Source: Siderastrea radians
Lineage: Eukaryota; Cnidaria; Anthozoa; Scleractinia; Rhizangiidae
Reading direction: 5' to 3'
Assembly (NCBI GenBank): GCA_964017195.1
Contig: OZ024894.1
Coordinates: 37,519,865 to 37,583,864 of the forward strand
DNA length: 64,000 bases
Made by a program: the position numbers and the translations under genes
The notes under the pieces: model-generated
What the model was told of the DNA's origin: nothing
Database searches by the model: none
The model's input: only the letters and a program-made list of their open reading frames with translations
Shown: positions 20,269 to 51,193 of the stretch, in pieces
Layout of the letters: each line of letters starts with the position of its first letter
Numbering within the stretch: position 1 is the first letter of the stretch

Positions 20269-20276
20269 TTTTAAAC

Positions 20277-21293
20277 GAGCGGATGTCTGTAAATATCGAC
20301 CAAGGGTGGGAAATATAAAAATTTTGAAAAATCCCAAAAAAATTCTGTAAACTTCCCTAGGTATTCTATTAACGAAAATATAAATTTTAGTTTCATCAGA
20401 TAAATATTTTGGCGATACGGCGGGTGTCAAGTTTGGGTGCTTCACGGCCTCCGCCAGACAGCTTTTTTGGGGCCCGAGACCGGGTTATGAAAAGAGCTCG
20501 ATTTGAATCTAATTCAAATATCATTCAACCCAAAAAGCTTTTTATCGTATTAAAGGGAATTTAACACATATTTTGAGTGGTAATGTGCTCGAATTGATTG
20601 TGACTAGAATATTTTACAGATTTTTAAATATTTACAAAATTTCGAGGATTTCACGCGAGCAAAATGTTGTCGAAATTCGAAGGCCTAAAATCACACCCGG
20701 TACCTAGTTTCAAACAGCAAAAGACATTTCACATTAAAAAGCAATCTCTAAGCTTTCAAAATATGGTTTTAAAACTTTGGGCAACACATGAAATGAATTT
20801 ATGGGAACGCAAAATTCAGGGAGCACTTGAGTGAAATTTGATCTTTCTGAATTGACAGTTTTGAGGTTCGGCGCGAGAAACAAATCAATACTCAAACAAA
20901 TGTTTCAGCCAAAATACGTTTAATTTAGGCAATCTCAAGTACCACAGTGATACATACATGCTTCATAGACATTAGGTGGAAAATGTTACCCCAATTTTCA
21001 GCCGAAAAGAACTCATATCTCGGCTTTCAAGTATTTGAACTTGCCTCGCTAATGTAAACATGTGGGTCAAGTTCTTATCACGTTACAGCGTTCAAAATCT
21101 ACACCAAATATCTATCCTGTCTAGTATAAAATCAGGTCTACAATATGTTTGTTTGTACCTTGTGTCCTTGTCTGTCTTCATTTCCCAAAATACTGAGGTA
21201 AACTACAGCGAAATCCCCGCGCGCTCGACGTGTCACGAGTCTCGTGGAAGTGCTGTTACGTGAGTCGAGATTGCGTTACATAACATGACACAC
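20277..21293 (+). repeat. Left ~1 kb terminal inverted repeat
   Basis: It is about 90 percent identical to the reverse complement of 50178-51193. Shared blocks include aatatcgaccaagggtg, aaatattttggcgatac/ggcgatacggcgggtg, ccgagaccgggttatg and tgcgttacataacatg. Identity stops at acacacag on the inside. Confidence 0.8.
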
Positions 21294-21669
21294 AGTTCAG
21301 GATTATTTCTGAGTAGTGAAAAAAATTCCATCCCTAATCTACATGTTGTAGGTATGCCATTGGAATGAGCTGGCAATCTTAAATTGTCATACTTAACCAT
21401 CGCAGACTTGTGATCACCGAACGTGCCAAACAGTATTCATTAGCGCTATGTAAATAACGTGTTCTTTTTTGTTGTTTGTTTTTGTTCCCCATTTTTGTCC
21501 TGATTTTTATCCGATTGGGAAATGTCCTAATACTTTTGCAATACCCTATTATACAAATCACAAGTAAGAGCGTCCCGGTACAGTCTGATCTTGTGCTTGC
21601 GGCATCAATCTTGATAGCCCAATCTCGTTCTATAAACTAGCGCTGAAAATAAGTAAGCATCATTGCTAC
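21294..21669. other. No gene seen; between TIR and tandem array
   Basis: Single-copy-looking sequence with no recognised feature. Confidence 0.35.
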
Positions 21670-24297
21670 TGTCCGAATGAGATCGATGATGAAATTGCCC
21701 ACTGTAACTGCAAACCAACCAAACTCTGTGACTTATGTACAGTTTCAGTGGTAAACTGTGGTTGCGGCGTTTTGCATTACAAATGGCACATGTGACACAA
21801 GAATAGTTGGGAGAGGGGTGGGTAAGTGTCATTCCAGCAAAATGTTGGTGGAACGGTTCTTGGTGTGTAAAATATAATACACTCGAGTGACTTTTCTCAT
21901 TGAAAGACGAAGTTATCACACCAAAACGATACCCTAATTACTGTTAAAAGAGAGAGAACGTACTTGCAACAAATGTAAGGCTTATTTTACGAAGTAATAG
22001 CATTGACTGAGCAAGCTTGAAAACGGATTTTTATTGTCCCAACAGCAAATCAATGAGGCTATAGGGTGCCCTTTTTACCCAAGTGACACAATTCACTCTG
22101 CATTTGAAAATATTTTCTTTCCGTTGAATGCTAATAAATCGCAGTTCCTCACCAGACACTTCGAACTGGAATTCAAGTCACGCGTATAATACGTCATGGC
22201 TAATGAGTAACGCCAACAGTACTCGGCAACAGTACTCAGCAACATTTTCTGCTTTTTCTCGTTCTAGAATAGAAAGAATCCCAGTAAAAGTGGTTCAAAT
22301 GTATCACTCCTATTAGAATAATAGTTTAATCAGGTTTTCCATATCAATGATGCTCGTTTTGGTCGACTTTAGCACAGTACTCGGCATATTTGCACTAAAA
22401 TAAACAAGAGAGGGAATATTTACTTCTTGTCTATAGGTGAGTACTGTTGATAAAATTCGATAGCTAGGGATCATTCGAGACTTTTCAATCTCAGTAAGTT
22501 GAAGAAACTATTGTTAACATATTGCCATAGAAAACAAAAGTAAACCTGAATAACCCGTGTTGTTACGCCTGACAATTTGTGTGAGTATTGTCGCTTTTTT
22601 AGCTGAGTACTGTTAACGCAGTGATAACATAAACGTGTATGTTTCAACGCTCATATAGCGTTCCTCTGTTAAATCAGACTGTTTGTGAAAATAGCAATAT
22701 TGCCTGTCATTGAACAACGCTTTTTTATATCAGTAAGGAAACAGAACCCTATAAACGCATATTTTAGCCCGAAAAGAAAATATGAAAAGATGTCATAAAT
22801 ACCACTTCCTGTATCTTCAATTAATAGTCCGCAAAGTAATGCCGCATGTGATGATAAAATATACTAACTACCCAGGACTATGGCTTGTTTGAGCTATTTC
22901 CGAAACGAGACTGTCTATTTCTACTAGTCAAAGCTTATATTCTAAGCGACAAACGCTCTCTCTTTCAAACTGGTCTATAGACATGTCCGAATGAGATCGA
23001 TGATGAAATTGCCCAGTGTAACTGCAAACCAACCAAACTCTGTGACTTATGTACAGTTTCAGTGGTAAACTGTGGTTGCGGCGTTTTGCATTACAAATGA
23101 CACATGTGACACAAGAATAGTTGGGGGAGGGGTGGGTAAGTGTCATTCCAGCAAAATGTTGGTGGAACGGTTCTTGGTGTGTAAAATATAATACACTCGA
23201 GTGACTTTTCTCATTGAAAGACGAAGTTATCACACCAAAACGATACCCTAATTACTGTTAAAAGAGAGAGAACGTACTTGCAACAAATGTAAGGCTTATT
23301 TTACGAAGTAATAGCATTGACTGAGCAAGCTTGAAAACGGATTTTTATTGTCCCAACAGCAAATCAATGAGGCTATAGGGTGCGCTTTTTACCCAAGTGA
23401 CACAATTCACTCTGCATTTGAAAATATTTTCTTTCCGTTGAATGCTAATAAATCGCAGTTTCTCACCAGACACTTCGAACTGGAATTCAAGTCACGCGTA
23501 TAATACGTCATGGTTAATGAGTAACGCCAACAGTACTCGGCAACAGTACTCAGCAACATTTTCTGCTTTTTCTCGTTCTAGAATAGAAAGAATCCCAGTA
23601 AAAGGGGTTCAAATGTATCACTCCTATTAGAATAATAGTTTAATCAGGTTTTCCATATCAATGATGCTCGTTTTGGTCGACTTTAGCACAGTACTCGGCA
23701 TATTTGCACTAAAATAAACAAGAGAGGGAATATTTACTTCTTGTCTATAGGTGAGTACTGTTGATAAAATTCGATAGCTAGGGATCATTCGAGACTTTTC
23801 AATCTCAGTAAGTTGAAGAAACTATTGTTAACATATTGCCATAGAAAACAAAAGTAAACCTGAATAACCCGTGTTGTTACGCCTGACAATTTGTGTGAGT
23901 ACTGTCGCTTTTTTAGCTGAGCACTGTTAACGCAGTGATAACATAAACGTGTATGTTTCAACGCTCATATAGCGTTCCTCTGTTAAATCAGACTGTTTGT
24001 GAAAATAGCAATATTGCCTGTCATTGGACAACGCTTTTTTATATCAGTAAGGAAACAGAACCCTATAAACGCATATTTTAGCCCGAAAAGAAAATATGAG
24101 AAGATGTCATAAATACCACTTCCTGTATCTTCAATTAACAGTCCGCAAAGTAATGCCGCATGTGATGATAAAATATACTAACTACCCAGGACTATGGCTT
24201 GTTTGAGCTATTTCCGAAACGAGACTGTCTATTTCTACTAGTCAAAGCTTATATTCTAAGCGACAAACGCTCTCTCTTTCAAACTGGTCTATAGACA

Positions 24298-24565
24298 ATT
24301 ATGGCCATTAGACCTTGGGACACTTGGTAATATTTCAGTGAGAAGTAAGAAAATGTAATCTCCACTGTAAGTAAAAGTCTTTTACAGGTTTTATGACTAT
24401 CTGTCCCCCTCCCCACCTCCCCAAACAATGTTGAAGATCAGTCACCAGTTTCAAATCCTAACTTCAACATTGTACAGGGGGGAGGGGGGCGAGGTAAGAG
24501 AATTTTTTAAATGACGCTAACGGGAAGCCATTTGAGCAAAGTGTCCCAAGAATTATGGCCATAGT
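24298..24565. mobile_element. 268 bp MITE inside array (copy 1)
   Basis: Terminal inverted repeats attatggccattag...CTTGGGACACTT and AAGTGTCCCAAGaattatggccatagt enclose an inner hairpin: cctccccacctcccc pairs with a G-rich gggaggggggcgagg, and aacaatgttgaag with cttcaacattgt. The flanking bases gaca and tgtc rejoin exactly as in monomer junctions without the MITE, so no target-site duplication is visible. Confidence 0.8.
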
Positions 24566-27196
24566 TGTCCGAATGAGATCGATGATGAAATTGCCCAGTG
24601 TAACTGAAAACCAACCAAACTCTGTGACTTATGTACAGTTTCAGTGGTAAACTGTGGTTGCGGCGTTTTGCATTACAAATGACACATGTGACACAAGAAT
24701 AGTTGGGGGAGGGGTGGGTAAGTGTCATTCCAGCAAAATGTTGGTGGAACGGTTCTTGGTGTGTAAAATATAATACACTCGAGTGACTTTTCTCATTGAA
24801 AGACGAAGTTATCACACCAAAACGATACCCTAATTACTGTTAAAAGAGAGAGAACGTACTTGCAACAAATGTAAGGCTTATTTTACGAAGTAATAGCATT
24901 GACTGAGCAAGCTTGAAAACGGATTTTTATTGTCCCAACAGCAAATCAATGACGCTATAGGGTGCCCTTTTTACCCAAGTGACACAATTCACTCTGCATT
25001 TGAAAATATTTTCTTTCCGTTGAATGCTAATAAATCGCAGTTCCTCACCAGACCCTTCGAACTGGAATTCAAGTCACGCGTATAATACGTCATGGTTAAT
25101 GAGTAACGCCAACAGTACTCGGCAACAGTACTCAGCAACATTTTCTGCTTTTTCTCGTTCTAGAATAGAAAGAATCCCAGTAAAAGTGGTTCAAATGTAT
25201 CACTCCTATTAGAATAATAGTTTAATCAGGTTTCCCATATCAATGATGCTCGTTTTGGTCGACTTTAGCACAGTACTCGGCATATTTGCACTAAAATAAA
25301 CAAGAGAGGGAATATTTACTTCTTGTCTATAGGTGAGTACTGTTGATAAAATTCGATAGCTAGGGATCATTCGAGACTTTTCAATCTCAGTAAGTTGAAG
25401 AAACTATTGTTAACATATTGCCATAGAAAACAAAAGTAAACCTGAATAACCCGTGTTGTTACGCCTGACAATTTGTGTGAGTACTGTCGCTTTTTTAGCT
25501 GAGTACTGTTAACGCAGTGATAACATAAACGTGTATGTTTCAACGCTCATATAGCGTTCCTCTGTTAAATCAGACTGTTTGTGAAAATAGCAATATTGCC
25601 TGTCATTGAACAACGCTTTTTTATATCAGTAAGGAAACAGAACCCTATAAACGCATATTTTAGCCCGAAAAGAAAATATGAAAAGATGTCATAAATACCA
25701 CTTCCTGTATCTTCAATTAATAGTCCGCAAAGTAATGCCGCATGTGATGATAAAATATACTAACTACCCAGGACTATGGCTTGTTTGAGCTATTTCCGAA
25801 ACGAGACTGTCTATTTCTACTAGTCAAAGCTTATATTCTAAGCGACAAACGCTCTCTCTTTCAAACTGGTCTATAGACATGTCCGAATGAGATCGATGAT
25901 GAAATTGCCCAGTGTAACTGCAAACCAACCAAACTCTGTGACTTATGTACAGTTTCAGTGGTAAACTGTGGTTGCGGCGTTTTGCATTACAAATGACACA
26001 TGTGACACAAGAATAGTTGGGGGAGGGGTGGGTAAGTGTCATTCCAGCAAAATGTTGGTGGAACGGTTCTTGGTGTGTAAAATATAATACACTCGAGTGA
26101 CTTTTCCCATTGAAAGACGAAGTTATCACACCAAAACGATACCCTAATTACTGTTAAAAGAGAGAGAACGTACTTGCAACAAATGTAAGGCTTATTTTAC
26201 GAAGTAATAGCATTGACTGAGCAAGCTTGAAAACGGATTTTTATTGTCCCAACAGCAAATCAATGAGGCTACAGGGTGCCCTTTTTACCCAAGTGACACA
26301 ATTCACTCTGCATTTGAAAATATTTTCTTTCCGTTGAATGCTAATAAATCGCAGTTCCTCACCAGACACTTCGAACTGGAATTCAAGTCACGCGTATAAT
26401 ACGTCATGGTTAATGAGTAACGCCAACAGTACTCGGCAACAGTACTCAGCAACATTTTCTGCTTTTTCTCGTTCTAGAATAGAAAGAATCCCAGTAAAAG
26501 TAGTTCAAATGTATCACTCCTATTAGAATAATAGTTTAATCAGGTTTTCCATATCAATGATGCTCGTTTTGGTCGACTTTAGCACAGTACTCGGCATATT
26601 TGCACTAAAATAAACAAGAGAGGGAATATTTACTTCTTGTCTATAGGTGAGTACTGTTGATAAAATTCGATAGCTAGGGATCATTCGAGACTTTTCAATC
26701 TCAGTAAGTTGAAGAAACTATTGTTAACATATTGCCATAGAAAACAAAAGTAAACCTGAATAACCCGTGTTGTTACGCCTGACAATTTGTGTGAGTACTG
26801 TCGCTTTTTTAGCTGAGTACTGTTAACGCAGTGATAACAACATTAACGTGTATGTTTCAACGCTCATATAGCGTTCCTCTGTTAAATCAGACTGTTTGTG
26901 AAAATAGCAATATTGCCTGTCATTGAACAACGCTTTTTTATATCAGTAAGGAAACAGAACCCTATAAACGCATATTTTAGCCCGAAAAGAAAATATGAAA
27001 AGATGTCATAAATACCACTTCCTGTATCTTCAATTAACAGTCCGCAAAGTAATGCCGCATGTGATGATAAAATATACTAACTACCCAGGACTATGGCTTG
27101 TTTGAGCTATTTCCGAAACGAGACTGTCTATTTCTACTAGTCAAAGCTTATATTCTAAGCGACAAACGCTCTCTCTTTCAAACTGGTCTATAGACA

Positions 27197-27464
27197 ATTA
27201 TGGCCATTAGACCTTGGGACACTTGGTAATATTTCAGTGAGAAGTAAGAAAATGTAATCTCCACTGTAAGTAAAAGTCTTTTACAGGTTTTATGACTATC
27301 TGTCCCCCTCCCCACCTCCCCAAACAATGTTGAAGATCAGTCACCAGTTTCAAATCCTAACTTCAACATTGTACAGGGGGGAGGGGGGCGAGGTAAGAGA
27401 ATTTTTTAAATGACGCTAACGGGAAGCCATTTGAGCAAAGTGTCCCAAGAATTATGGCCATAGT
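27197..27464. mobile_element. MITE inside array (copy 2)
   Basis: Same as 24298-24565, at the same site between monomers. Confidence 0.8.
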
Positions 27465-30095
27465 TGTCCGAATGAGATCGATGATGAAATTGCCCAGTGT
27501 AACTGAAAACCAACCAAACTCTGTGACTTATGTACAGTTTCAGTGGTAAACTGTGGTTGCGGCGTTTTGCATTACAAATGACACATGTGACACAAGAATA
27601 GTTGGGGGAGGGGTGGGTAAGTGTCATTCCAGCAAAATGTTGGTGGAACGGTTCTTGGTGTGTAAAATATAATACACTCGAGTGACTTTTCTCATTGAAA
27701 GACGAAGTTATCACACCAAAACGATACCCTAATTACTGTTAAAAGAGAGAGAACGTACTTGCAACAAATGTAAGGCTTATTTTACGAAGTAATAGCATTG
27801 ACTGAGCAAGCTTGAAAACGGATTTTTATTGTCCCAACAGCAAATCAATGACGCTATAGGGTGCCCTTTTTACCCAAGTGACACAATTCACTCTGCATTT
27901 GAAAATATTTTCTTTCCGTTGAATGCTAATAAATCGCAGTTCCTCACCAGACCCTTCGAACTGGAATTCAAGTCACGCGTATAATACGTCATGGTTAATG
28001 AGTAACGCCAACAGTACTCGGCAACAGTACTCAGCAACATTTTCTGCTTTTTCTCGTTCTAGAATAGAAAGAATCCCAGTAAAAGTAGTTCAAATGTATC
28101 ACTCCTATTAGAATAATAGTTTAATCAGGTTTCCCATATCAATGATGCTCGTTTTGGTCGACTTTAGCACAGTACTCGGCATATTTGCACTAAAATAAAC
28201 AAGAGAGGGAATATTTACTTCTTGTCTATAGGTGAGTACTGTTGATAAAATTCGATAGCTAGGGATCATTCGAGACTTTTCAATCTCAGTAAGTTGAAGA
28301 AACTATTGTTAACATATTGCCATAGAAAACAAAAGTAAACCTGAATAACCCGTGTTGTTACGCCTGACAATTTGTGTGAGTACTGTCGCTTTTTTAGCTG
28401 AGTACTGTTAACGCAGTGATAACATAAACGTGTATGTTTCAACGCTCATATAGCGTTCCTCTGTTAAATCAGACTGTTTGTGAAAATAGCAATATTGCCT
28501 GTCATTGAACAACGCTTTTTTATATCAGTAAGGAAACAGAACCCTATAAACGCATATTTTAGCCCGAAAAGAAAATATGAAAAGATGTCATAAATACCAC
28601 TTCCTGTATCTTCAATTAATAGTCCGCAAAGTAATGCCGCATGTGATGATAAAATATACTAACTACCCAGGACTATGGCTTGTTTGAGCTATTTCCGAAA
28701 CGAGACTGTCTATTTCTACTAGTCAAAGCTTATATTCTAAGCGACAAACGCTCTCTCTTTCAAACTGGTCTATAGACATGTCCGAATGAGATCGATGATG
28801 AAATTGCCCAGTGTAACTGCAAACCAACCAAACTCTGTGACTTATGTACAGTTTCAGTGGTAAACTGTGGTTGCGGCGTTTTGCATTACAAATGACACAT
28901 GTGACACAAGAATAGTTGGGGGAGGGGTGGGTAAGTGTCATTCCAGCAAAATGTTGGTGGAACGGTTCTTGGTGTGTAAAATATAATACACTCGAGTGAC
29001 TTTTCCCATTGAAAGACGAAGTTATCACACCAAAACGATACCCTAATTACTGTTAAAAGAGAGAGAACGTACTTGCAACAAATGTAAGGCTTATTTTACG
29101 AAGTAATAGCATTGACTGAGCAAGCTTGAAAACGGATTTTTATTGTCCCAACAGCAAATCAATGAGGCTACAGGGTGCCCTTTTTACCCAAGTGACACAA
29201 TTCACTCTGCATTTGAAAATATTTTCTTTCCGTTGAATGCTAATAAATCGCAGTTCCTCACCAGACACTTCGAACTGGAATTCAAGTCACGCGTATAATA
29301 CGTCATGGTTAATGAGTAACGCCAACAGTACTCGGCAACAGTACTCAGCAACATTTTCTGCTTTTTCTCGTTCTAGAATAGAAAGAATCCCAGTAAAAGT
29401 AGTTCAAATGTATCACTCCTATTAGAATAATAGTTTAATCAGGTTTTCCATATCAATGATGCTCGTTTTGGTCGACTTTAGCACAGTACTCGGCATATTT
29501 GCACTAAAATAAACAAGAGAGGGAATATTTACTTCTTGTCTATAGGTGAGTACTGTTGATAAAATTCGATAGCTAGGGATCATTCGAGACTTTTCAATCT
29601 CAGTAAGTTGAAGAAACTATTGTTAACATATTGCCATAGAAAACAAAAGTAAACCTGAATAACCCGTGTTGTTACGCCTGACAATTTGTGTGAGTACTGT
29701 CGCTTTTTTAGCTGAGTACTGTTAACGCAGTGATAACAACATTAACGTGTATGTTTCAACGCTCATATAGCGTTCCTCTGTTAAATCAGACTGTTTGTGA
29801 AAATAGCAATATTGCCTGTCATTGAACAACGCTTTTTTATATCAGTAAGGAAACAGAACCCTATAAACGCATATTTTAGCCCGAAAAGAAAATATGAAAA
29901 GATGTCATAAATACCACTTCCTGTATCTTCAATTAATAGTCCGCAAAGTAATGCCGCATGTGATGATAAAATATACTAACTACCCAGGACTATGGCTTGT
30001 TTGAGCTATTTCCGAAACGAGACTGTCTATTTCTACTAGTCAAAGCTTATATTCTAAGCGACAAACGCTCTCTCTTTCAAACTGGTCTATAGACA

Positions 30096-30363
30096 ATTAT
30101 GGCCATTAGACCTTGGGACACTTGGTAATATTTCAGTGAGAAGTAAGAAAATGTAATCTCCACTGTAAGTAAAAGTCTTTTACAGGTTTTATGACTATCT
30201 GTCCCCCTCCCCACCTCCCCAAACAATGTTGAAGATCAGTCACCAGTTTCAAATCCTAACTTCAACATTGTACAGGGGGGAGGGGGGCGAGGTAAGAGAA
30301 TTTTTTAAATGACGCTAACGGGAAGCCATTTGAGCAAAGTGTCCCAAGAATTATGGCCATAGT
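30096..30363. mobile_element. MITE inside array (copy 3)
   Basis: Same as 24298-24565, at the same site between monomers. Confidence 0.8.
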
Positions 30364-32994: not shown

Positions 32995-33262
32995 ATTATG
33001 GCCATTAGACCTTGGGACACTTGGTAATATTTCAGTGAGAAGTAAGAAAATGTAATCTCCACTGTAAGTAAAAGTCTTTTACAGGTTTTATGACTATCTG
33101 TCCCCCTCCCCACCTCCCCAAACAATGTTGAAGATCAGTCACCAGTTTCAAATCCTAACTTCAACATTGTACAGGGGGGAGGGGGGCGAGGTAAGAGAAT
33201 TTTTTAAATGACGCTAACGGGAAGCCATTTGAGCAAAGTGTCCCAAGAATTATGGCCATAGT
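32995..33262. mobile_element. MITE inside array (copy 4)
   Basis: Same as 24298-24565, at the same site between monomers. Confidence 0.8.
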
Positions 33263-37475: not shown

Positions 37476-37490
37476 TGTAGCTAGTAAAAG

Positions 37491-37700
37491 TCTGCTCGCT
37501 GATGTGCGACGATACAGCGTGCGAATATGGAGCGTTGGTAGGGGGCGAGTGTGGCTTAAGTACCAAATACCCGAGCACAGAGTACGTGCGCATTGGAGAG
37601 TGCAACCGAACAACTGAGCGCCACTTTACAGACACCCTGCAAGCCAGTTTTGCTAACTGTGGCTTGAACACTGAAGCAGAGCTGATATTAGCCAGGGCAG
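37491..37700 (+). CDS. Possible exon of an unrecognised gene
   Basis: An open frame (SLMCDDTACEYGALVGG, YVRIGECNRTTERHF, LQASFANCGLNTEAEL) ends at a strong donor, GCAG|GTAAGT at 37701. A possible acceptor is ...taaaag just before it. There are five cysteines and a coding-like composition, but I recognise no family. It may be a fragment carried by the large element. Confidence 0.3.
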
Positions 37701-38619: not shown

Positions 38620-38970
38620 AAATTAACCTTTATTTCCTTTTTCGGGCAAAAGTCAGATCTACATATAGAATTTCATAACATCAAATATAACGCGCGCGCG
38701 CACTATGGATGATTCTCTAGCAAAGCATTTTAAATGCCTGCTCCCCTCTGATAAGAACTGTGATAAAGATTTGATAAAAACTTTGTGATAAAAATTATGT
38801 GATAAAACTGTGACAAAAATTTGATAAAACTATGATAACTGTGATAAAAACTATGGTAAAAATTTACCTTTATTTCCTTTGTCGGGCAAAAGTCAGATCT
38901 ACACATAGAATTTCATAACATCAAATCTAACGCGCGCGCGCGCGCTATGGACGATTCTCTAGCAAAGCAA
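38620..38970 (+). repeat. ~100 bp direct duplication with CG dinucleotide runs
   Basis: 38624-38727 and 38868-38970 both contain ctttatttcctttt/cctttg, gggcaaaagtcagatc, atagaatttcataac, a (CG)5-7 run and gattctctagcaaagc. Between them are degenerate tgataaaaact repeats. No function is recognised. Confidence 0.65.
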
Positions 38971-39029
38971 TAATACCTGATCCCCTCTATGACAAAAACT
39001 GTCCCCTAGCTCACAAGGGAGGCGTTAAA

Positions 39030-40208: not shown

Positions 40209-40439
40209 AACCAGCAGAACAAGTGTAACACGAACTCTTGACGGGAGCAAAAGCAGTTCGAGTTACCGCTTTGAGTCAGGGGTTAGTTGGTTTAACTTTC
40301 CTATAAAGACTACTTTGTACCCCTAAATTTTTGCGGGAGTTTAATTTTGCGAATGGGCGATGTTTTGTGTTTTGCGGGAACTAATTTTTGCGATTGGAAA
40401 ACACTGTTTTTTCTGACTGGGAATATATGTATATATATT

Positions 40440-40720
40440 CATTGATTCATTCAGCTTTGCAATGAAACGCTCCAGCACTTCGCAAGGTTTTGGCGCCTTT
40501 TTCGTTCAGTCATGTGATCGATTCTTGTTCCGCTTAAATTTCTTTTTTCATTTTTCCCTTTCTTTCTTGATTTTTTTTTATAGTGGTTAAGTTTTTAATA
40601 AAACAATTATTCTACTCGGGCTTGCTGGATATCGAATGATTATAACCAACTCGGCGCTACGCGCCTCGTTGGTTATCTATCATTCGATATCCAGCGCGCC
40701 CTCGTAGAATAATTGTTAAA
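40440..40720 (+). mobile_element. Helentron-like non-autonomous element, 3' end fragment
   Basis: It matches the hairpin end of the elements at 46305-47698 and 48117-49511 in opposite orientation: aatgaaacgctccagc, gttaagtttttaataaaac, then a ~110 bp hairpin beginning caattattctactcgg and ending cgtagaataattgtta. Confidence 0.6.
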
Positions 40721-40732
40721 CATATATATATA

Positions 40733-41458
40733 TTTATTATTCAACAAATTGTCACTATGCCCATATATGGAAAGGAAGCCCTCAATATCTGTCATCCGTA
40801 CATGACAGATATCCTGCGATATACGTAAATGACCATATTTGGAAGTGCACTGCAGATTTTCTTTCATTGCTTGTTTGGCGGCCATTTTGAAAAGCGAGGC
40901 AGTTTTAGCAGTGTTCTCCGTAAATTTTAACTCTCTGGAAGACACTTTCCACGATGAAATGCTCTCAAAAAGTCAACAAGTATTTGCTTCAGCTCACTTG
41001 GAATTTTGATAGTGAGAACTCAACCAAGAAAATGCTACTGCGAACGAAGCAGCACACTTGCTCACGGAAAGTTGTAAAGACTAAAGTTGAAAAGATTTTA
41101 ATTCACAGAAAGAGGACTTATTCTCGGTAAGGTAGCAATATTGTTTTTCCTCTGTCTTGTCATTTCCAAACATGAGTTTGTAAATAAGTCTTTTTAAGTG
41201 AACGGTAGTAAACTTCGATTTCTTGAAGTTCTGTTTTGATTTTTATTAAGCTTAAGTTTCTAGCTTTTAGCGTTTTCATCATAGAGCCGTAGTTTTTCTC
41301 GTTCTGAAAATGGTAGGCGTTGGGAATTTGTTGAATAATAAAACAATTATCCTGCTCAATCTTGCGGAATATCCCCTGATTTTAGCCAACTCGGCCTACG
41401 GCCTCGTCGGCTAAGTATCAGGTGATATTCCGCGCGATTTCGCAGGATAATTGTTAAA
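40733..41458 (+). mobile_element. Helentron-like non-autonomous element, second family
   Basis: The body is bounded by inverted ttattattcaacaaatt (40734) and aatttgttgaataataa (41325-41341). A ~110 bp terminal hairpin follows at once (acaattatcctgctc ... gcaggataattgt, with inner ccaactcgg/ctcgtcggc). Subterminal inverted repeats plus a one-sided 3' hairpin is the layout reported for Helentron-type elements; this assignment is inference. Confidence 0.5.
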
Positions 41459-41461
41459 TAT

Positions 41462-41616
41462 ATACACCCGTTTTCAAAAACATTGCAACTTGAAAAATAT
41501 ATCTACATATATACATCTTTTGTCTTCACAACGCGAAAACAAAAGAATAAATATGAAAACAAAAGGTATATATATATGTCTATATATTTTTCAAGTTGCA
41601 ATGTTTTTGGAAACGG

Positions 41617-41622
<6 letters not shown>
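41462..41622. mobile_element. Palindromic MITE, second copy
   Basis: It is nearly identical to 14293-14456: cccgttttcaaaaacattg and caatgtttttggaaacggg form the outer arms. It is again followed by (TA)n and the PLE end. Confidence 0.65.
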
Positions 41623-41676
<54 letters not shown>

Positions 41677-42064
41677 TTCTCACAAGCATCCATTCTTGTA
41701 GTCTCTCATAACGATCATATAAATTTAACACAAATGAAGACAAACTCTAACTTTTTTTGTTTAACACCTATATTTCGAGTACATTCAGTACTCTTCTTTA
41801 GGGTGACTAAAAACCGTTACAAGAATCGTATTACAATATTCAAACTGTACATTTCAAAATTGCGCTACTAAGGACACGCGTCTTAAACGATTTTTATCGC
41901 GCGCGTACACCCGCACGTGACTTCTTGTATTGTGCGTAAAATCCGTCATTGTCGTTGAGGCCATGGGGCGCCAAGGTCGCCAGTTTGTAAATCCAGTGAT
42001 TTTCTCTTTCTCGTAATTCTTTTTCTCCTTTGACATGGTCTATCAGCTGTATTTGCATGTCTTC

Positions 42065-42370
42065 TCAACCTCTGTGCCCGTCACTATTGAAATGTCTGTA
42101 TATGAGGTCATCTTTCCCTTTTTGATTTAAACTTAAATTAACATGAGCATTGACCCTGCTTTTATGATTATTAAATCGGGTTCTAAATCTAGTCGTAGTA
42201 GATCCTACATATTGCACTTTGCACTTAGTACAATTGATCAGGTAGATTACGTTACTACAGTTGCAATCTAAGTTATAATTAATTTTAAATTCTTTGCCAT
42301 TCTCATTGCTACAAAAGGTGTCACCTAGACATAAAAAATTACATATATTTGACAGTTTTTTGAAGTACAT
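42065..42370 (-). pseudogene. PLE GIY-YIG endonuclease, out of frame with RT
   Basis: The frame reads SNICNFLCLGDTFCS, EFKINYNLDCNCSN, VIYLINCTKCKVQYVG and FRTRFNNHKSRVNAH, covering the GIY (IYLI) and YIG (YVG) segments and the catalytic Arg. A stop follows HFNSDGHRG at 42065-42067. Beyond the stop the conserved tail (IQLIDHVKGEKELRE, NHWIYKLATL) can still be read at 41930-42060. The frameshift before and the stop within are both shared with the inverted copy at 45.6-45.9 kb. Confidence 0.8.
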
Positions 42371-44391
42371 TTCAATGTTCCATTGATCTTCTCTTTCGGG
42401 GCGTTCGTAAAACGAGCACGAACCAGGTATTGAGCTAAGCTCTTTGACTTCCTATACGCCACCATTGGTACTTGTGGAATGGCTTCTTTACACCTCGTGG
42501 ATGAATGTAAAACTGGATGTAGCTTTTGAAGTAGACCTCCAATATGCGGGAGGCCAGGATGGTAGGTTACCACAAACGGAACCCGAGTGTTTTCTTTTCT
42601 CGGTCTTTCTGCTAAAACTTCATCTCTCGACGTTCTCCTTGCTCGATCTATTTGTTCTTCCACATACTTCTTCTTGTATCCCCTCTCTTCTAAAAACTTG
42701 CATAAATCACTAGCTCGTTTCTCAAAGAACGAGTTCCTTGAACAGATTCGTCTTAATCTCAACGCTTGCGCAAAAGGGATCCCTTTCTTGCAAGCGTTTG
42801 GGTGACACGATGTTTTGTGGAGGTATTGATGACTATCTGTTGGCTTTATGAAGACATCAGTCTCGAGTTTCCCAGAATCATTGATCACTTTCACATCCAA
42901 GAATTCTATTTCACTACACGACCATTTTGATGTAAACTTTATTGTTCTATGTGCATTGTTGAGGTACTCGATGAAGCTTTTAAGACTGTCTTCCCCCTCC
43001 GTCCAAATAATGAAAATGTCATCAATGAAACGCCACCATGTGTGAGGTTTAATTTCTGCTTGTGAAATTAATTGTCTCTCTAGTCTATCCATGAATATAT
43101 TGGCATACGATGGAGCCATGCGAGTTCCTATCGCTGTTCCCAACTTCTGCACATAGTGCTTGTTATCAAATTCAAAATTATTATTTTTAAGAACGAGCTC
43201 TGTAAAATCAACAATGTCCTGTTTGAGACCACTGTTCTCCGATCGATCTGAATGATGAGTATTAGAAAGTCCCAGGGCCTCTCGGACCGCCTGTAACCCC
43301 TCGTCGTGCGGAATGTGCGGATACAGACCAACAACATCTATTGTACATAAAATAGCTCCATCAGGCAATGTTCCTACGTTCTTCAATTTGCGTAAAAAGT
43401 CATTGGTATCTTTTATATAAGACGCTATATTTGGTACCAATGGTCGCAAGTGGTGGTCTACATATTGTGAAATCTTCTCTGTAGGTGTATTACAACCTGA
43501 TATCACTGGTCGTCCGGGACATCCTTCCTTGTGAATTTTTGGAAGTAAGTAAAATCTTCCTGCTCTCTCTTCCCCTGAAGCCATAAGATATTGCTGCGTT
43601 TCCTTGTCAATGTTGCCCTGGTGATATGATTTCTGAATCCGTTCATTAATCTTTTTTATCATGTCTTTAGTTGGGTCTTTCACTAACGGTTGGTATACCT
43701 CCTTATCATCAAGTTGTCTCATCGCTTCCCTTAAGTAGGCTTCTTTATCCATTACAACAACCACAGACCCCTTATCCGCTTGCTTAATGATTATGTCATC
43801 ATAACGACGTAAATTTTCAAGTGCTGTTTGTTCATCTTTGGAAAGATTTCTCTGATAAGCCGTATCAAAATCATGCGACAACAATTCTTTTTCAAGGGAT
43901 TCAACGTAAGCCTCAATTGCTAATTCTCTATTCCTGTCAGGGATCCAACCAGATTTTTTCCTAAACACTGGGATTTCAGAAAAATCTCCTCCTACATCGT
44001 CGTCTTTGTGAAAGTATTCTTTTAATCGGATGCGTCTAATGTAATCCTTAATGTCTTTCCGCAGCGCATAAAGATCAACCTTCAGTCCTTTTGACAAAAG
44101 TGACACTTCTGGTTCACTTAACACTCTTCGGGAAAGATTCACAACATTTTTAAACGCACTCGCAAAGTTACTCTGTTCTCTCATACCCTCGGGCTCTCCT
44201 GATATATCTTCCGTTCTTCGACTTTCCGTTTCCATACTTCCTATTTCTGATGTTTCTGCACGTGAACGACTTCCCTCTCTATAACAATCTACTGACGGGA
44301 GCACTCTGTCCCCCTTGCATTCTTTTACTAGAGAATCAATGTCACTACTATTTACTTTCGTCAAATCAACTAAAAAGAAGTGGACAATCAA
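42325..44391 (-). CDS. PLE reverse transcriptase
   Basis: An open frame of 688 codons encodes a complete PLE-type reverse transcriptase. It has ADKGSVVVVMDKEAY, RFYLLPKIHKEGCPG and RPVISGCNTPTEKIS, motif A TIDVVGLYPHIPH, motif B LGTAIGTRMAPSYAN, motif C WWRFIDDIFIIW, then IEFLDVKV and the thumb region TYHPGLPHIGGLL. The catalytic Asp residues of motifs A and C are present. The frame runs out at IYVIFYV because of a 2-base insertion in an AT run near 42348; the endonuclease continues in another frame. PLE RTs copy the element RNA at a nicked target. The element is unlikely to be autonomous in this state. Confidence 0.85.
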   Translation of the reverse strand: MIVHFFLVDLTKVNSSDIDSLVKECKGDRVLPSVDCYREGSRSRAETSEIGSMETESRRTEDISGEPEGMREQSNFASAFKNVVNLSRRVLSEPEVSLLSKGLKVDLYALRKDIKDYIRRIRLKEYFHKDDDVGGDFSEIPVFRKKSGWIPDRNRELAIEAYVESLEKELLSHDFDTAYQRNLSKDEQTALENLRRYDDIIIKQADKGSVVVVMDKEAYLREAMRQLDDKEVYQPLVKDPTKDMIKKINERIQKSYHQGNIDKETQQYLMASGEERAGRFYLLPKIHKEGCPGRPVISGCNTPTEKISQYVDHHLRPLVPNIASYIKDTNDFLRKLKNVGTLPDGAILCTIDVVGLYPHIPHDEGLQAVREALGLSNTHHSDRSENSGLKQDIVDFTELVLKNNNFEFDNKHYVQKLGTAIGTRMAPSYANIFMDRLERQLISQAEIKPHTWWRFIDDIFIIWTEGEDSLKSFIEYLNNAHRTIKFTSKWSCSEIEFLDVKVINDSGKLETDVFIKPTDSHQYLHKTSCHPNACKKGIPFAQALRLRRICSRNSFFEKRASDLCKFLEERGYKKKYVEEQIDRARRTSRDEVLAERPRKENTRVPFVVTYHPGLPHIGGLLQKLHPVLHSSTRCKEAIPQVPMVAYRKSKSLAQYLVRARFTNAPKEKINGTLKCTSKNCQIYVIFYV

Positions 44392-45115
44392 CGGGAAGGG
44401 GATTTACTCCGGCATTATTCTCATCCAGCTCTAAATCTTTAATTTCTACTTGCATAGGTCTTCTTGATTCATCTCCATCGGTAACTTGTTGTCTAATATT
44501 TGAAATAAACTCTCCAATCTGGACCTCTAGGTTTTGATCCCCTATTGTTTCGTTCACGACGTCATTTGGCGTAAAATTACCTTCAAAGGTCAGGTCACTC
44601 GTCTCACCGTTTCCTTCCATGAGATTATTTAATTTCTTAGTTCTTTTGTTCGTTAAACCCTCTTTGAATTTAGAACTAACCTCCAAAGCCTTAGTGATCA
44701 TTTGCTGTGCCGTTGGATGACCATATTTAGCTGTGATAACTTCTTCCATGTTCAAAATTTCTTCAGCAATCATTTCTTTTACCTTGTGTGTTTCCACTAC
44801 TAAAAGCTCTTGTATACGATAAGATGCGTCCATTAAAACAGCTTTCCAATTTCTATCAAATTCTTCTGTTACGCTTTCAATGTTAGGATGTTTCTTGATC
44901 TTCAAACCAGTGGCAATGACACTGTGTTCTTGACAATTTTTCAGGAATAAATTGTGATGTTCGTACCTGGTGCGCTTCTTGTACAGATTCAACAATTTGA
45001 AAAAATAATACGATTCTGACCTCTCCATCGATGCAATTAAATATAAACTTCTCACAAGCATCCATTCTTGTAGTCTCTCATAACGATCATATAAATTTAA
45101 CACAAATGAAGACAA
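44366..45115 (-). pseudogene. PLE N-terminal coding part
   Basis: The open frame of about 249 codons starts MSSFVLNLYDRYERLQ within the terminal repeat. It encodes a charged, helix-rich region (NWKAVLMDASYRIQEL, EEILNMEEVITAKY) without known domain. It ends in PLPVDCPLLFS just as the RT frame opens in another register (VHFFLVDLTKVNSSD) near 44391. A single-base lesion therefore probably separates two parts of one original protein. Confidence 0.6.
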
Positions 45116-45128
45116 ACTCTAACTTTTT

Positions 45129-46107
45129 TTGTTTCAATACCTCCACAAAACATCGTGTCACCCAAACACTTGCAAGAAAGGGATCCCTTTTGCGCAAGCG
45201 TTGAGATTAAGACGAATCTGTTCAAGGAACTCGTTCTTTGAGAAACGAGCTAGTGATTTATGCAAGTTTTTAGAAGAGAGGGGATACAAGAAGAAGTATG
45301 TGGAAGAACAAATAGATCGAGCAAGGAGAACGTCGAGAGATGAAGTTTTAGCAGAAAGACCGAGAAAAGAAAACACTCGGGTTCCGTTTGTGGTAACCTA
45401 CCATCCTGGCCTCCCGCATATTGGAGGTCTACTTCAAAAGCTACATCCAGTTTTACATTCATCCACGAGGTGTAAAGAAGCCATTCCACAAGTACCAATG
45501 GTGGCGTATAGGAAGCCAAAGAGCTTAGCTCAATACCTGGTTCGTGCTCGTTTTACGAACGCCCCAAAAGAGAAGATCAATGGAACATTGAAATGTACTT
45601 CAAAAAACTGTCAAATATATGTAATTTTTTAAGTCTAGGTGACGCGTTTTGTAGCAATGAGAATGGCAAAGAATTTAAAATTAATTATAACTTAGATTGC
45701 AACTGTAGTAACGTAATCTACCTGATCAATTGTACTAAGTGCAAAGTGCAATATGTAGGATCTACTACGACTAGATTTAGAACCCGATTTAATAATCATA
45801 AAAGCAGGGTCAATGCTCATGTTAATTTAAGTTTAAATCAAAAAGGGAAAGATGACCTCATATACAGACATTTCAATAGTGACGGGCACAGAGGTTGAGA
45901 AGACATGCAAATACAGCTGATAGACCATGTCAAAGGAGAAAAAGAATTACGAGAAAGAGAAAATCACTGGATTTACAAACTGGCGACCTTGGCGCCCCAT
46001 GGCCCCAACGACAATGACGGATTTTACGCACAAAACAAGAAGTCACGTGCGGGTGTACGCGCGCGATAAAAATCGTTTAAGACGCGTGTCCTTAGTAGCG
46101 CAATTTT
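45129..46107 (+). pseudogene. PLE RT thumb and GIY-YIG (inverted copy)
   Basis: The frame ends at 45632 after KNCQIYVIF. It then shifts to NICNFLSLGDAFCS, VIYLINCTKCKVQYVG, FRTRFNNHKSRV and stops after DGHRG near 45898. A last frame gives FTNWRPWRPMAPT, which is an off-register reading of the conserved C-terminus HWIYKLATLAPHG. The lesions are the same as in the minus-strand copy. Confidence 0.75.
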
Positions 46108-46154
46108 GAAATGTACAGTTTGAATATTGTAATACGATTCTTGTAACGGTTTTT

Positions 46155-46200
46155 AGTCACCCTGAAGAAGAGTACTGAATGTACTCGAAATATAGGTGTT
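46155..46200 (+). ncRNA. Hammerhead-like motif at PLE 3' end
   Basis: The core is CTGAAGA (consensus CUGANGA), one extra A, stem II GAGTAC-TGAAT-GTACTC, then GAAA, a nearly absent stem III (TATA) and flanking CACC/GGTG as stem I. The homologous site at 15620-15665 changes two stem II pairs in a compensating way. The minus-strand copy near 41772-41815 has a core change (CTAAAGA). Stem III is shorter than in well-studied hammerheads, so activity may depend on dimer formation. Confidence 0.45.
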
Positions 46201-46304
46201 AAACAAAAAAAGTTAGAGTTTGTCTTCATTTGTGTTAAATTTATATGATCGTTATGAGAGACTACAAGAATGGATGCTTGTGAGAAGTATATATATATAT
46301 ATAT

Positions 46305-47695
46305 ATTTAACAGTTATTCTACGAGGGCGCGCTGGATATCGAATGATAGATAACCAACGAGGCGCGTAGCGCCGAGTTGGTTATAATCATTTGATATCCA
46401 GCAAGCCCGAGTAGAATAATTGTTTTATTAAAACTTAACCACTATTAAAAAAAAATCAAGAAAGAAAGGGAAAAATGAAAAAAGAAATTTAAGCGGAACA
46501 AGAATCGATCACATGACTGAACGAAAAAGGCGCCAAAACCTTGCGAAGTGCTGGAGCGTTTCATTGCAAAGCTGAATGAATCAATGAAAACTGCTCGAAA
46601 GTGAACAAAGTAGCACAAGTTTTGGAAAAAACCTTATAATTATTGGCTCTGAAATATCGTACATGTTTGATTTTTCCTGAACATTGTTGTAATCATCGTT
46701 CAAAGCCGGATTGAAGCTGTACAATTTCACCATATAGCTGCTGGAGTAGAACTGAACAAGTTTGTAATCTGTTCGCACAACGGAGCCATCATGTGCGTGT
46801 TTGATCGAACTGAAGACAGAACAAATTTGAACAGTTGAACTTAAACAGGTATTTTCTGTGCAGCTCAGAAGCAAGATTACTGTAGCGAGGAACATTAGAA
46901 TTCACCATCATAGTTTGTTAAACGGAAAGCGCAAAATGCAGTTGTTCTCGGTTTAGAGGTTGCGGACGGAATGGTAAAAACAACATTCAAACAACTGGAA
47001 AAGCGATTCAACTCCGTTTACATGGCATCCGATTTCTATCTGAGCATTTGGACCTGTTGGAACACAGAGCTACAACAAGTGCAGGTAAACCAGTGTCAAT
47101 TTTGCGTGTTAAAGCCGAAAAACAATCTCGCCCTTCCTTCCTTCTTGGTAGTTTGCAGCTGTATCTTTTTTAGTAAGCTTACTTGTTTAGACTGCTTCAT
47201 GATTTTCGCACCGACTTGCCATGAATGTGTGATAGTTTTTATTAAATGCTCCTGCCCCATTTCACTGTGTTTTATTTTATGTCTTGTCTTGATATTATGA
47301 AGTGGAAATCCTTTCTGATAAAACCTACCGTTTGTTCAATTTCAATGATCGACGTGACGATCGATGAAAGAAATTAATTGTAAACACAACGCTTAATGCT
47401 TAAATTTCTATTTCTGCACAGTTTCTTCAAACAATTATGACTTTTGTTAGACTACGCTGTTGGTGATGCTTGTTGGTGACGCTGTTGGAATTTCTGCTTA
47501 ATTTAAATTTGCTGGCAAGTGATTTTTCTCGTCCATTTTTCTCGCCGGGTTGCTCGCGGGGAAAAAAACTTTCAGGTCACTTTGTTGTTGAGTGTTCATT
47601 GACCATATTTGGTCGCAGCAGGTATATGAACTGATAGCCTAGCTCCGTTGAGCCAATCAAAATGCTAGTAATCCAATATACCTAGTCCAGTTTTT

Positions 47696-47698
<3 letters not shown>
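46305..47698 (-). mobile_element. Helentron-like non-autonomous element, copy B
   Basis: It is about 1.4 kb between (TA)n tracts. A ~110 bp hairpin at the left (acagttattctacgag ... gtagaataattgt, inner ggcgcgtagcgcc) is followed by ttttattaaaacttaacc. The other end is ccagtttttaataata, so short inverted repeats bound the body and the hairpin lies outside them at one end. It is about 95 percent identical to copy C. Confidence 0.6.
46581..46895 (-). CDS. Small open frame with signal-peptide-like start, inside Helentron-like element
   Basis: The frame starts MFLATVILLLSCTEN, a typical hydrophobic signal sequence, and continues SSTVQICSVFSSIKHAH, SYMVKLYSFNPALNDD, for 104 codons. Copy C has the same start (48710) but shifts frame after about 50 codons. 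It may be an exon captured by the element or chance; no homologue is recognised. Confidence 0.3.
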   Translation of the reverse strand: MFLATVILLLSCTENTCLSSTVQICSVFSSIKHAHDGSVVRTDYKLVQFYSSSYMVKLYSFNPALNDDYNNVQEKSNMYDISEPIIIRFFPKLVLLCSLSSSFH

Positions 47699-47750
<52 letters not shown>

Positions 47751-47751
<1 letters not shown>

Positions 47752-48041
47752 CAGTTAATGGTTGCCTCAGGCCAACAAAGAATGCCACTGCGTCAGGAGG
47801 ATCAAAGATTCACAGTCCAAGCCTCACTGCATGGAATTAAAACTCGTTGAAGGAAAGCGAGGACGGACAACTTCTGACGATTAAAAAGTTAAAAAATTTA
47901 ATAAAAAATAAAAACGTTTCGGTCTTAGACCTTCATCAGTGTAACTGATGAAGGTCTAAGACCGAAACGTTTTTATTTTTTATTAAATTTTTTAACTTTT
48001 TAATCGTCAGAAGTTGTCCGTCCTCGCTTTCCTTCAACGAG
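47751..48041. mobile_element. PLE 3' end palindrome with hammerhead-like motif
   Basis: 47843-47940 and 47944-48041 are perfect reverse complements (98 bp arms, centre 47942). Each arm carries CTGATGA-AGGTCTAAGACC-GAAACG, a hammerhead-type core with stem II GGTC/GACC, and a long A/T stretch, ending ctttccttcaacgag. 47751-47842 is a unilateral extension. (TA)n flanks both sides. Stems I and III are not complete, so ribozyme activity is doubtful. Confidence 0.6.
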
Positions 48042-48047
48042 TATATA

Positions 48048-48116
<69 letters not shown>
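48042..48116. repeat. (TA)n microsatellite
   Basis: A nearly pure TA run of about 75 bp lies between the PLE palindrome and the Helentron-like copy C. Confidence 0.9.
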
Positions 48117-48119
<3 letters not shown>

Positions 48120-49509
48120 ACAATTATTCTACTAGGGCGCGCTGGATATCGAATGATAGATAACCAACGAGGCGCGTAGCGCCGAGTTGGTTATAATCAT
48201 TTGATATCCAGCAAGCCCGAGTAGAATAATTGTTTTATTAAAAACTTAACCACTATTTAGAAAAAAAAAATCAGAAAGAACGGGAAAAATGAGAAAAAAA
48301 TTTAAGCGGAACAAGAATCGATCACATGACTGAACGAAAAAGGCGCCAAAACCTTGCGAAGTGTTGCAGCGTTTCATTGCAAAGTTGAATGAATCAATGA
48401 AAACTGCTCGAAAGTGAGCAAAGTAGCACACGTTTTGGAAAAAAATCTTCTAATTATTGGCTCTGAAATATGGTACATGTTTGATTTTTCCTGAACATTG
48501 TTGTAATCATCGTTCAAAGCCGGATTGAAGCTGTACAATTTCACCATATAGCTGCTGGAGTTGAAACTGAACAAGTTTGTAATCTGTTAGCACAACGGAG
48601 CCATCATGTGCGTGTTTGATCGAACTGAAGACAGAACAAATTTGAACAGTTGAACTTGAAGAGGTATTTTCTATGCAGCTCAGAAGCAAGATTACTGTAG
48701 CGAGGAACATTAGAATTCACCATCATAGTTTGTTAAACGCAAAGCGCAAAATGCAGTTGTTCTCGGTTTAGAGGTTGCGGACGGAATGGTAAAAACAACA
48801 TTCAAACAACTGGAAAAGCGATTTAACTCCGTTTACATGGCATCCAATTTCTATTTGAGCACTTCCACCTGTTGGAACACAGAGCTACAACAAGTGCAGG
48901 TAAACCAGTGTCCTGATTTTGCATGTTAAAGCTGAAAAACAATCTCGCCCTTCCTTCCTTCTTGGTAGTTTGCAGCTGTATTTTGTTTTAGCACTTGTTT
49001 AGACAGTGCTTCATGATTTTCGCACCGACTCGCCATAAATGTGTGATAGTTTTTATTAAATGGTTCAGCCCCATTTCATTGTGTTTTATTTTATGTCTTG
49101 TCTTGATATTTTGAAGTGGAAATCCTTTCTGATAATACCTACCGTTTGTTCAATTTCAATGATCGACGTGACGATCGATGAAAGAAATTAATTGTAAACA
49201 CAACGCTTAATGCTTAAATTTCTATTTCTGCACAGTTTCTTCAAACAATTTTGGCTTGTGTTAGACGACGCTGTTGGTGGTGCTTGTTGGTGACGTTGTT
49301 GGAATTTCTGCTTAATTTAAATTTGCTGGCAAGTGATTTTTCTCGTCCATTTTTCTCGCCGGGTTGCTCGCGAGGAAAAAACTTTCAGCTCACTTTGTTG
49401 TTGAGTGTTCATTGACCATATTTGGTCGCAGCAGGTATATGAGCTGATAGCCTAGCTCCGATGAGCCAATCAAAATGCTAGAAATCCAATATACCTAGTC
49501 CAGTTTTTA

Positions 49510-49511
<2 letters not shown>
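48117..49511 (-). mobile_element. Helentron-like non-autonomous element, copy C
   Basis: It has the same structure as copy B: terminal hairpin 48120-48230, then ttattaaaaacttaacc, and right end ccagtttttaataaa. The matching inverted ends ttattaaaaact/agtttttaataa are clearest in this copy. (TA)n tracts lie on both sides. Confidence 0.6.
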
Positions 49512-49563
<52 letters not shown>

Positions 49564-49584
49564 ATATATATATATATATATATA
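49512..49584. repeat. (TA)n microsatellite
   Basis: A TA run of about 70 bp with one C interruption. Confidence 0.9.
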
Positions 49585-50177
49585 TTTGCGATTTTGAGGA
49601 AGTCGCCTTCTATTTGAAATTATAACATTCTCTTTTTTGAGTGCAAACCATCGAATGTAGGCCAGGTGAACAGCATGTAGATGTTACAATTCAGTCAGTC
49701 AATCAATGGAATACCTTCAGACGATCCTTTTTTAAAAGCTTTTAATATCCAAATACCTGTAGTGTACCTACTGCAATTTCATCGTTTTATTTCTGAATGC
49801 TGTGTTTTGTAATTTCCGTTTGGTTTTGTAAATGAGCAACAACATGATTTTTAATACATGTTAAAGGCGATGTTTGTATATAAATTTGACAGTAGAGTCA
49901 ATTTTTGCGAAGAAAATGTTTAGATGCGCGCAACACCCGTCAAAAAAACCCGCAAAAATTAGAACCCGCAATTCGCAAGAATTAAGTGCCACACGGTATC
50001 ACAAGAAAAAAAAAAAAGGAATCGGCGCGAGTAAACGCTGAAATTTGAGTTTGCCGAGTTCAAGTTATCAAGGTTCTACTGTGATTTGCATTTTTAAATC
50101 TAAAGTTCATTTTTCCCAAAGAATCTCCTGTAGACGAAGGTGCCCGTGTTTTCGGTCTTCCTGTGTTCGGTCTCCCT
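49585..50177. other. No gene seen
   Basis: A+T-rich DNA between the microsatellite and the right TIR. A segment near 49910-50000 (acccgcaaaaattag, acccgcaattcgcaag) resembles scattered repeat sequence, also seen in inverse form near 40330-40395. No gene recognised. Confidence 0.3.
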
Positions 50178-51193
50178 GTGTGTCATGTTATGTAACGCAA
50201 TCTCGATTCACGTAATAGCACTTCCACGAGACTGGTGCCACGTCGAGCGTGCGGGGATTTCGCTGTAGTTTGCCTCAGTTTGTGAGGAAATGAAGACAAA
50301 AAAGACACAAGCTACAAACAAACATGTTGTAGACCTGGTTATATACTAGTCAGGATAGATATTTGGAGTAGATTTTGAACACTTCGCTGTGACGTGATAA
50401 GAGCTTGACCCACATGTTTATATTAGCGAGGCAAGTTCAAATACCTGAAAGCCGAGATATGGGTTCTTTTCGGCTGAAAATTGGGGTAACATTTTCCACC
50501 TAAGTCTATGAAGCACCTTTGTATCACGTGGGACTTGAGATTGCCTAAATTAAACGTATTTGGCTGAAATATTTGTTTGAGTATTGATTTGTTTGTCGCG
50601 CCGAACCTCAAAACTGCCAATTCAGAAAGATCAAATTTCACTCAAGTGCTCCCTGAATTTTTTGTTCCCATAAATTCATTTCATTGTTGCCCAAAGTTTT
50701 AAAACCATATTTTGAAAGCTTAGAGATTGCTTTTTAATGTGAAATGCTTTTGCTGTTTGAAACTAGGTACCGGGTGTGATTTTAGGCCTTCGAATTTCGA
50801 CAACATTTTGCTCGCGTGAAATCCTCGAAATTTTGTAACTATTTAAAAATCTGTAAAATATTCTAGTCGCAATCAATTCAAGCAAATTACCACTCAAAAT
50901 GTCTGTTAAATTCCCTTTAATACGATAAGAAGCCTTTTGGGTTGAATGATGTTTGAATTAGATTCAAATCGAGCTCTTTTCATAACCCGGTCTCGGGCCC
51001 CGAAAAAGCTGTCTGGCGGAGGCCGTGAAGGGCCCAAACTTGACACCCGCCGTATCGCCAAAACATTTATCCGACGAAACTAAAACTTATATTTTCGTTA
51101 ATAGAATACCTAGGGAAGTCTACAGAATTTTTTTGGGATTTTTCAAAATTTTTATATTTCCCACCCTTGGTCGATATTTACAGACATCCGCTC
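50178..51193 (-). repeat. Right ~1 kb terminal inverted repeat
   Basis: Reverse complement of 20277-21293 at about 90 percent identity, ending in gacatccgctc next to the N-terminal half of the recombinase frame. Confidence 0.8.

Follow-up and report, generated by a model that had tools for sequence, protein, structure and literature searches.

Is a stretch of more than 30 kb between two terminal inverted repeats (TIRs) in a coral genome a single giant transposon, or a compact one that has swollen? The question is raised by a locus of Siderastrea radians (C8:37519865-37583864 in an assembly of 805 Mb and 439 contigs), here called the window and covering 64,000 nucleotides, in which a TIR-bounded element of 30,917 bp stands between the two parts of a coding frame resembling a tyrosine recombinase. 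A preliminary description had left open whether this was a new class of giant element or a smaller one enlarged by tandem amplification and nested insertions. We find it very probable that a non-autonomous TIR transposon of ~5.9 kb inserted at a TTAA site in the recombinase-like frame and, afterwards or before, swelled to 30.9 kb. The gene content of the window is eukaryotic: EGF-like exons are present, as are Penelope-like frames with RVT_1 and GIY-YIG. The main segments of the element are the following:

20277..21295, plus strand: left TIR with tip GAGCGGATGTC (TIR alignment; family matches in the genome)
21296..21669, plus strand: left body, found in compact copies too
21670..37478, plus strand: tandem array of 11 monomers of 1,314-1,317 bp with a dimeric higher-order pattern (repeat analysis)
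37479..40430, plus strand: core, found in compact 5.9-kb copies too
40431..49589, no strand: nested block in the TA tract of the element (repeat analysis and comparison with compact copies)
49590..50175, plus strand: right body, found in compact copies too
50176..51193, minus strand: right TIR with tip GAGCGGATGTC on that strand (TIR alignment)
51194..51197, no strand: right TTAA target-site copy (sequence adjoining the tip)

Terminal repeats and the size of the element

The two TIR arms (~1.02 kb) are identical in 966 of 1,025 alignment columns, with 46 substitutions and 9 gap runs, and the local alignment between them stops at precisely 20277 and 51193, where the recombinase-like frames also stop, as the preliminary description had stated. 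The 22-nt tip, with at most 3 mismatches, occurs at just two sites in the window, both of them TIR ends, and at none in 100 shuffles. Subtracting the array (15,809 bp) and the nested block (9,159 bp) from the total leaves 5,949 bp, which is the size of the compact copies described below. An initial estimate of 7,263 bp, in which one monomer had been added back, was dropped because compact copies contain no monomer.

The family in the genome

A TIR query against the genome gave 40 scored matches among 251 first-look candidates, at 92-100% identity, and family copy counts are thus lower bounds. Twenty stretches around TIR matches were fetched, 18 of which contain both ends. All 38 readable ends in these stretches have TTAA at a GAGCGG tip or, at the left end of copy L021, a GAGTGG tip, and TTAA is likewise present in 16 of 16 additional end pieces, among them those that complete L014 and L018. 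TTAA therefore directly adjoins the tip in 54 of 54 other family ends and on both sides in 20 of 20 other copies, which, together with the shared tips, supports the earlier proposal of a single insertion by TIR ends. Not all copies are independent: flanking sequences match between L037 and L027, L039 and L040, and L042 and L009, which suggests that these segments were duplicated.

The complete copies are small. L015, L016, and L017 (5,924, 5,912, and 5,863 bp) have neither the array nor the nested block and are collinear with the TIR, left body, core, right body, and TIR of the window copy (91.5-97.6% identity by segment), as expected of a smaller element that swelled by amplification and nested insertion. 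A second subfamily of 4.8-5.1 kb makes up 11 of the 18 (L009-L012, L019, L020, L022-L026), and L027 and L028 measure 4,555 and 4,350 bp. Because 16 of the 18 complete copies thus span 4,350-5,924 bp and the other two are a composite with a third, partial TIR (L013, 8,118 bp) and a copy whose retroelement insert has RVT_1 and phage-integrase-type frames (L021, 9,490 bp), the idea of a new class of giant element is unsupported. The TIR tip had no match in viral or prokaryote contigs and the TIR none in phage records, which says little for an animal transposon.

In the nine other copies measured, the TIR arms all differ by 4.5-6.2%, so the arm divergence is ancestral and gives no date for the insertion in the window.

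The probably interrupted recombinase-like gene

51194..51795, minus strand: N-terminal part of the interrupted recombinase-like frame (ORF reading; ORF, open reading frame)
19215..20270, minus strand: C-terminal part, with candidate motifs GSRPMT, VTKNG, HPTRYRH, and KHSSAVAKVHY (ORF and motif reading)

A minus-strand frame of 200 codons extends up to 51194 (...STELYV + AA) and continues for five codons inside the element before a stop; another on that strand, of 351 codons (KRARKMV...), begins at 20270, immediately past a TAA. The G+C content at third codon positions (GC3) of the two halves is 0.475 and 0.476. We presume an uninterrupted ancestral gene. From its candidate motifs, we take this gene to be a putative tyrosine recombinase, presumably of the Crypton type named in the preliminary description. 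Candidate R-H-R-Y motifs, read without a profile match, occur in order at residues 83, 153, 180, and 209 of the C-terminal half; an R-H-R-Y tetrad is the criterion for Crypton-type tyrosine recombinases (PMC3212892). The split gene had no convincing match among Pfam, PHROGs, and NCBIfam models or PDB sequences, and the C-terminal half had no relative in viral or prokaryote contigs, which are poor collections for an animal transposon and say little. A single-sequence structure model had a predicted local distance difference test score (pLDDT) of 38.3 and was unusable.

The halves contain no further frame lesion, whereas ~7.3 indels would be expected under neutral decay over the full arm divergence; hence either the insertion is younger than the arm divergence or the halves remained under selection.

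The left junction

20262..20281, no strand: left junction palindrome CGCTCGTTT-TT-AAACGAGCG across the gene, TTAAAC, and the tip (palindrome scan and end comparison)

Among 56 ends, the left end of the window copy (TTAAAC) is the sole exception to a tip-adjacent TTAA. The near-identical flanks TTAAAC and TTAACG had been noted earlier; the right end indeed reads tip|TTAA, but a clean 6-bp duplication does not hold, as the left end reads TTAAAC|tip and the family duplicates TTAA. Since the other copies show this duplication, the left end carries extra changes beyond it. A plain TTAA duplication predicts CGCTCGTTTAA|GAGCGG, whereas the window reads CGCTCGTTTTTAAAC|GAGCGG, so that the expected imperfect palindrome CGCTC-GTTTAA-GAGCG is replaced by the perfect one, CGCTCGTTT-TT-AAACGAGCG. 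This 20-mer, with 9-bp arms, is one of four such palindromes in the 64 kb (arms of at least 9, spacer of at most 5, at least 3 G or C per arm).

When the halves are rejoined with 0-15 bases dropped, the frame is open only at 5, 8, 11, and 14 (4 of 16 joins, a weak test); dropping 8 gives STELYVKRARKMV. The junction could conceivably, though somewhat doubtfully, reflect a quasi-palindrome correction after insertion, by which the 4-base TTAA gained 4 further bases; a local assembly error is another explanation. A literature search for work tying both quasipalindromes and template-switch mutation to transposons found no paper.

A transposase-like gene in a longer relative

L018:1077-4585, minus strand: spliced DDE-like transposase gene with a C2H2- and SAP-like end (exon joining; residues by eye)
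39497..40206, plus strand: broken remnant of the last transposase exon (92.8% identity to the L018 exon; frame-broken)

L018, joined with L029, forms one copy of 10,712 bp (C10:10916935-10927646) with TTAA on both sides. Three of its exons, joined over GT-AG introns, give 676 codons without a stop and contain candidate catalytic D, D, and E residues, read by eye only; a further exon encodes a C2H2-like finger and, at its end, a SAP-like part whose match is weak (E=0.0063, short of the cut-off). Against Pfam, five scanned L018 pieces matched neither THAP nor any transposase model at E up to 0.5, and upstream exons may be missing. Searches with an L018 exon and with the ORF at 39479-40066 found no relative in viral contigs, a poor place for an animal transposon, and the transposase exon gave nothing convincing against PDB sequences.

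In the window copy, Pfam identified no transposase in the 17 of 99 ORFs scanned (at least 50 amino acids, unique parts), and two transposase exons of L018 have no match in the window. The statement that the element has no recognised transposase thus fits the window copy in the ORFs scanned, but not the family, as a relative elsewhere has a transposase-like gene. Because only a broken last-exon remnant is present and the other exons are unmatched, the window copy may be read as a deletion derivative that was moved in trans.

The tandem array and the nested block

24298..24565, plus strand: first of five ~268-bp inserts in alternate monomers (repeat analysis)
41654..46309, minus strand: Penelope-like retroelement (RVT_1, GIY-YIG) with a 1,176-bp inverted arm (Pfam and repeat analysis)
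46288..47749, plus strand: unnamed 1.46-kb repeat, copy 1 (repeat analysis)
48098..49561, plus strand: unnamed 1.46-kb repeat, copy 2 (repeat analysis)

The monomers of the array are nearly identical. Monomers 2, 4, 6, 8, and 11 carry the ~268-bp insert; two sets of variants occur, one common to monomers 3, 5, 7, and 9 and the other to 4, 6, 8, and 10, and the edge monomers 1, 2, and 11 differ. This is the pattern that amplification of a ~2.9-kb dimer by unequal exchange would be expected to leave. The array was found in none of the 18 complete copies. Compared with L014, the closest relative of the window copy (10,886 bp, without the array), it lies between two TA steps (L014 ATTGCTAGCTAG; window ATTGCTA-C...TTG-TAGCTAG) and may therefore have begun as a TA-duplicating insertion; L015-L017 read ATTGACAGCTAG at this site and are uninformative on the TA duplication. 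The length of the array and the linkage of the TIRs rest on the assembly, which we assume to be correct across the array.

In the nested block, the Penelope-like element shows the reverse transcriptase (RVT_1, E=3.7e-10) and GIY-YIG (E=1.3e-5) domains and inverted terminal parts that characterise such elements (PMC3846280), and is a passenger that does not belong to the TIR element itself. Its arms are identical at 1,165 of 1,176 positions, and the two copies of the 1.46-kb repeat in 1,405 of 1,473 columns. The Penelope-like frame had no relative in viral contigs, again a poor place for an animal transposon. Both additions, array and nested block, look young because the monomers are nearly identical and the Penelope-like arms differ at only 11 positions.

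Copies differ in the retroelement insert that occupies the TA tract of the element: one is found in the window (40431-49589) and another in L014 (L014:674-5610). The tract therefore looks like an insertion hotspot. The L014 insert has an endonuclease-type frame and another read by eye as Penelope-like, which Pfam did not confirm.

Origin of the locus and alternative explanations

We propose that a ~5.9-kb cut-and-paste DNA transposon with ~1-kb TIRs landed at TTAA in the tyrosine-recombinase-like coding frame. It would have been a deletion derivative of a family whose longer members, such as the 10.7-kb copy, have a spliced DDE-like transposase, supplied in trans. Before or after landing, the element would have grown to 30.9 kb in two ways: through a TA-flanked insertion that unequal exchange multiplied into 11 monomers, and through the entry of a Penelope-like element, along with other repeats, into the internal TA tract. 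Several observations weigh against this history: the left junction has TTAAAC instead of TTAA, the recombinase-like frame stays closed when just a 4-bp duplication is removed, no empty site or homologue of that gene was seen (homologue search in viral and prokaryote contigs and PDB sequences), and the last exon of the L018 gene has a frame break, with no transposase activity known. If the array and nested block had formed first, the whole ~31 kb would have transposed as a giant unit. The data set no order of landing and swelling, and relatives of 8-11 kb with TTAA at both ends exist (L013, L021, L014, L018), but we consider this order of events unlikely in view of the absence of the array from all 18 complete copies and the apparent youth of both additions.

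The other alternatives are weaker still. The frame halves may never have been one gene and may meet the TIR tips by accident, as the lack of a recombinase homologue and the weak frame test would allow; yet both long frames halt at the tips, on the same strand, in order, and with equal GC3, in a window with 20 frames of at least 150 amino acids, and such a coincidence is very improbable. Little more than marginal, and slightly less probable again, is a misjoining of separate TIR copies or a mis-sized array: arrays of near-identical kilobase-scale units are hard to assemble and the linkage rests on the assembly, but left body, core, and right body are ordered as in L015-L017 and the edge monomers are distinct from the inner ones. 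A target duplication of ~5 bp (TTAAC/TAAAC), and hence a different superfamily, would be compatible with the open frame left by dropping 5 bases, but is hardly credible against TTAA at all 54 other ends, which likewise led us to reject duplications of 6 and 8 bp.

On this reading, what looked like a giant element comes down to a compact family and one swollen copy, with compact, transposase-bearing, and inflated forms coexisting in one genome. The locus would clearly illustrate how one copy of a DNA transposon can become the seed of a higher-order tandem array, and it cautions that TIR-to-TIR distance by itself is no proof of a giant transposon.

Classification and comparison with known elements

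The window element belongs to an already known general type of cut-and-paste transposon. In published accounts, Kolobok is recognised by TTAA together with RR...YY ends and is thereby told apart from piggyBac (PMC9587614). The family shares with Kolobok the TTAA duplication (both ends of the 20 other copies, the right end only of the window copy), 5'-RR...YY-3' termini (GA...TC at the ends read), a putative DDE-like transposase judged by residues read by eye, and a size range, full-length Xenopus copies measuring several to ~14 kb (tabulated 6.8-13.9 kb; PMC9587614, PMC6004289). Kolobok transposases usually have THAP, H2CH, and DDE parts (PMC6004289), whereas here no THAP was found in the transposase pieces; the ~1-kb TIRs and the 31 kb of the window copy are further differences. 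The ends thus fit Kolobok but, with no THAP found in the five scanned pieces of L018, the family may be a sister lineage. More speculatively, and rather unlikely, the family may be a separate lineage specific for TTAA, having TIRs of 1 kb and a spliced, THAP-less DDE-like transposase with a C2H2/SAP-like end, in which a defective copy seeded a higher-order satellite; if so, the locus would be a transposon that interrupts a gene and is becoming a satellite.

Arrays have precedents in Kolobok-type and foldback elements. The Xmix/Xstir T2-MITEs (miniature inverted-repeat transposable elements) of Xenopus, presumed non-autonomous Kolobok, have an amplified internal tandem segment (PMC6004289), but of simple sequence repeats rather than 1.3-kb monomers with a dimeric pattern. 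KolobokP multimers are also TTAA elements with tandem structures (PMC9587614), but long terminal direct repeats are repeated there, whereas the unit amplified here is free of TIR sequence and the ends are inverted repeats. Tetris, a non-autonomous foldback element of Drosophila virilis, has internal repeats that gave rise to satellite-like arrays, although these are ~220 bp long and located in its TIRs (PMC4079207). In coral genomes, tandem gene duplication is reported to be pervasive (PMC10236652). Coral CMITEs and piggyBac likewise duplicate TTAA in a coral, but differ in their CCC-type ends and ~100-bp length (PMC2872659).

Two assignments were rejected. piggyBac requires CC[C/T]T-type termini with TTAA (PMC2872659), and the tips here are GAGCGG or GAGTGG. 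Polinton/Maverick requires PolB and a retroviral-like integrase (PMC6431247); neither was matched in the 17 window ORFs scanned, and the 5.9-kb ground state has no frame above 217 amino acids in L015-L017, in agreement with the earlier remark that no Polinton gene set is present.

Other features in the window

A second TIR-bounded structure lies at 5205-16096 (TIRs 5205-5451 and 15850-16096, 227 of 247 positions identical). It contains a young tandem array (5649-10226, units of ~1.66 kb) and also Penelope-like pieces, and no TTAA pair flanks it. An inverted repeat at 10249-11143 has 441-bp arms, reported as 100% complementary, with a 13-base gap and flanking TA runs. Two tRNA-Thr (GGT) genes in opposite orientation lie in nearly perfect inverted repeats at 1524-2095. 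A tandem duplication of ~1.26 kb at 56856-59383 (1,222 of 1,274 columns identical) adjoins the EGF-like exons.

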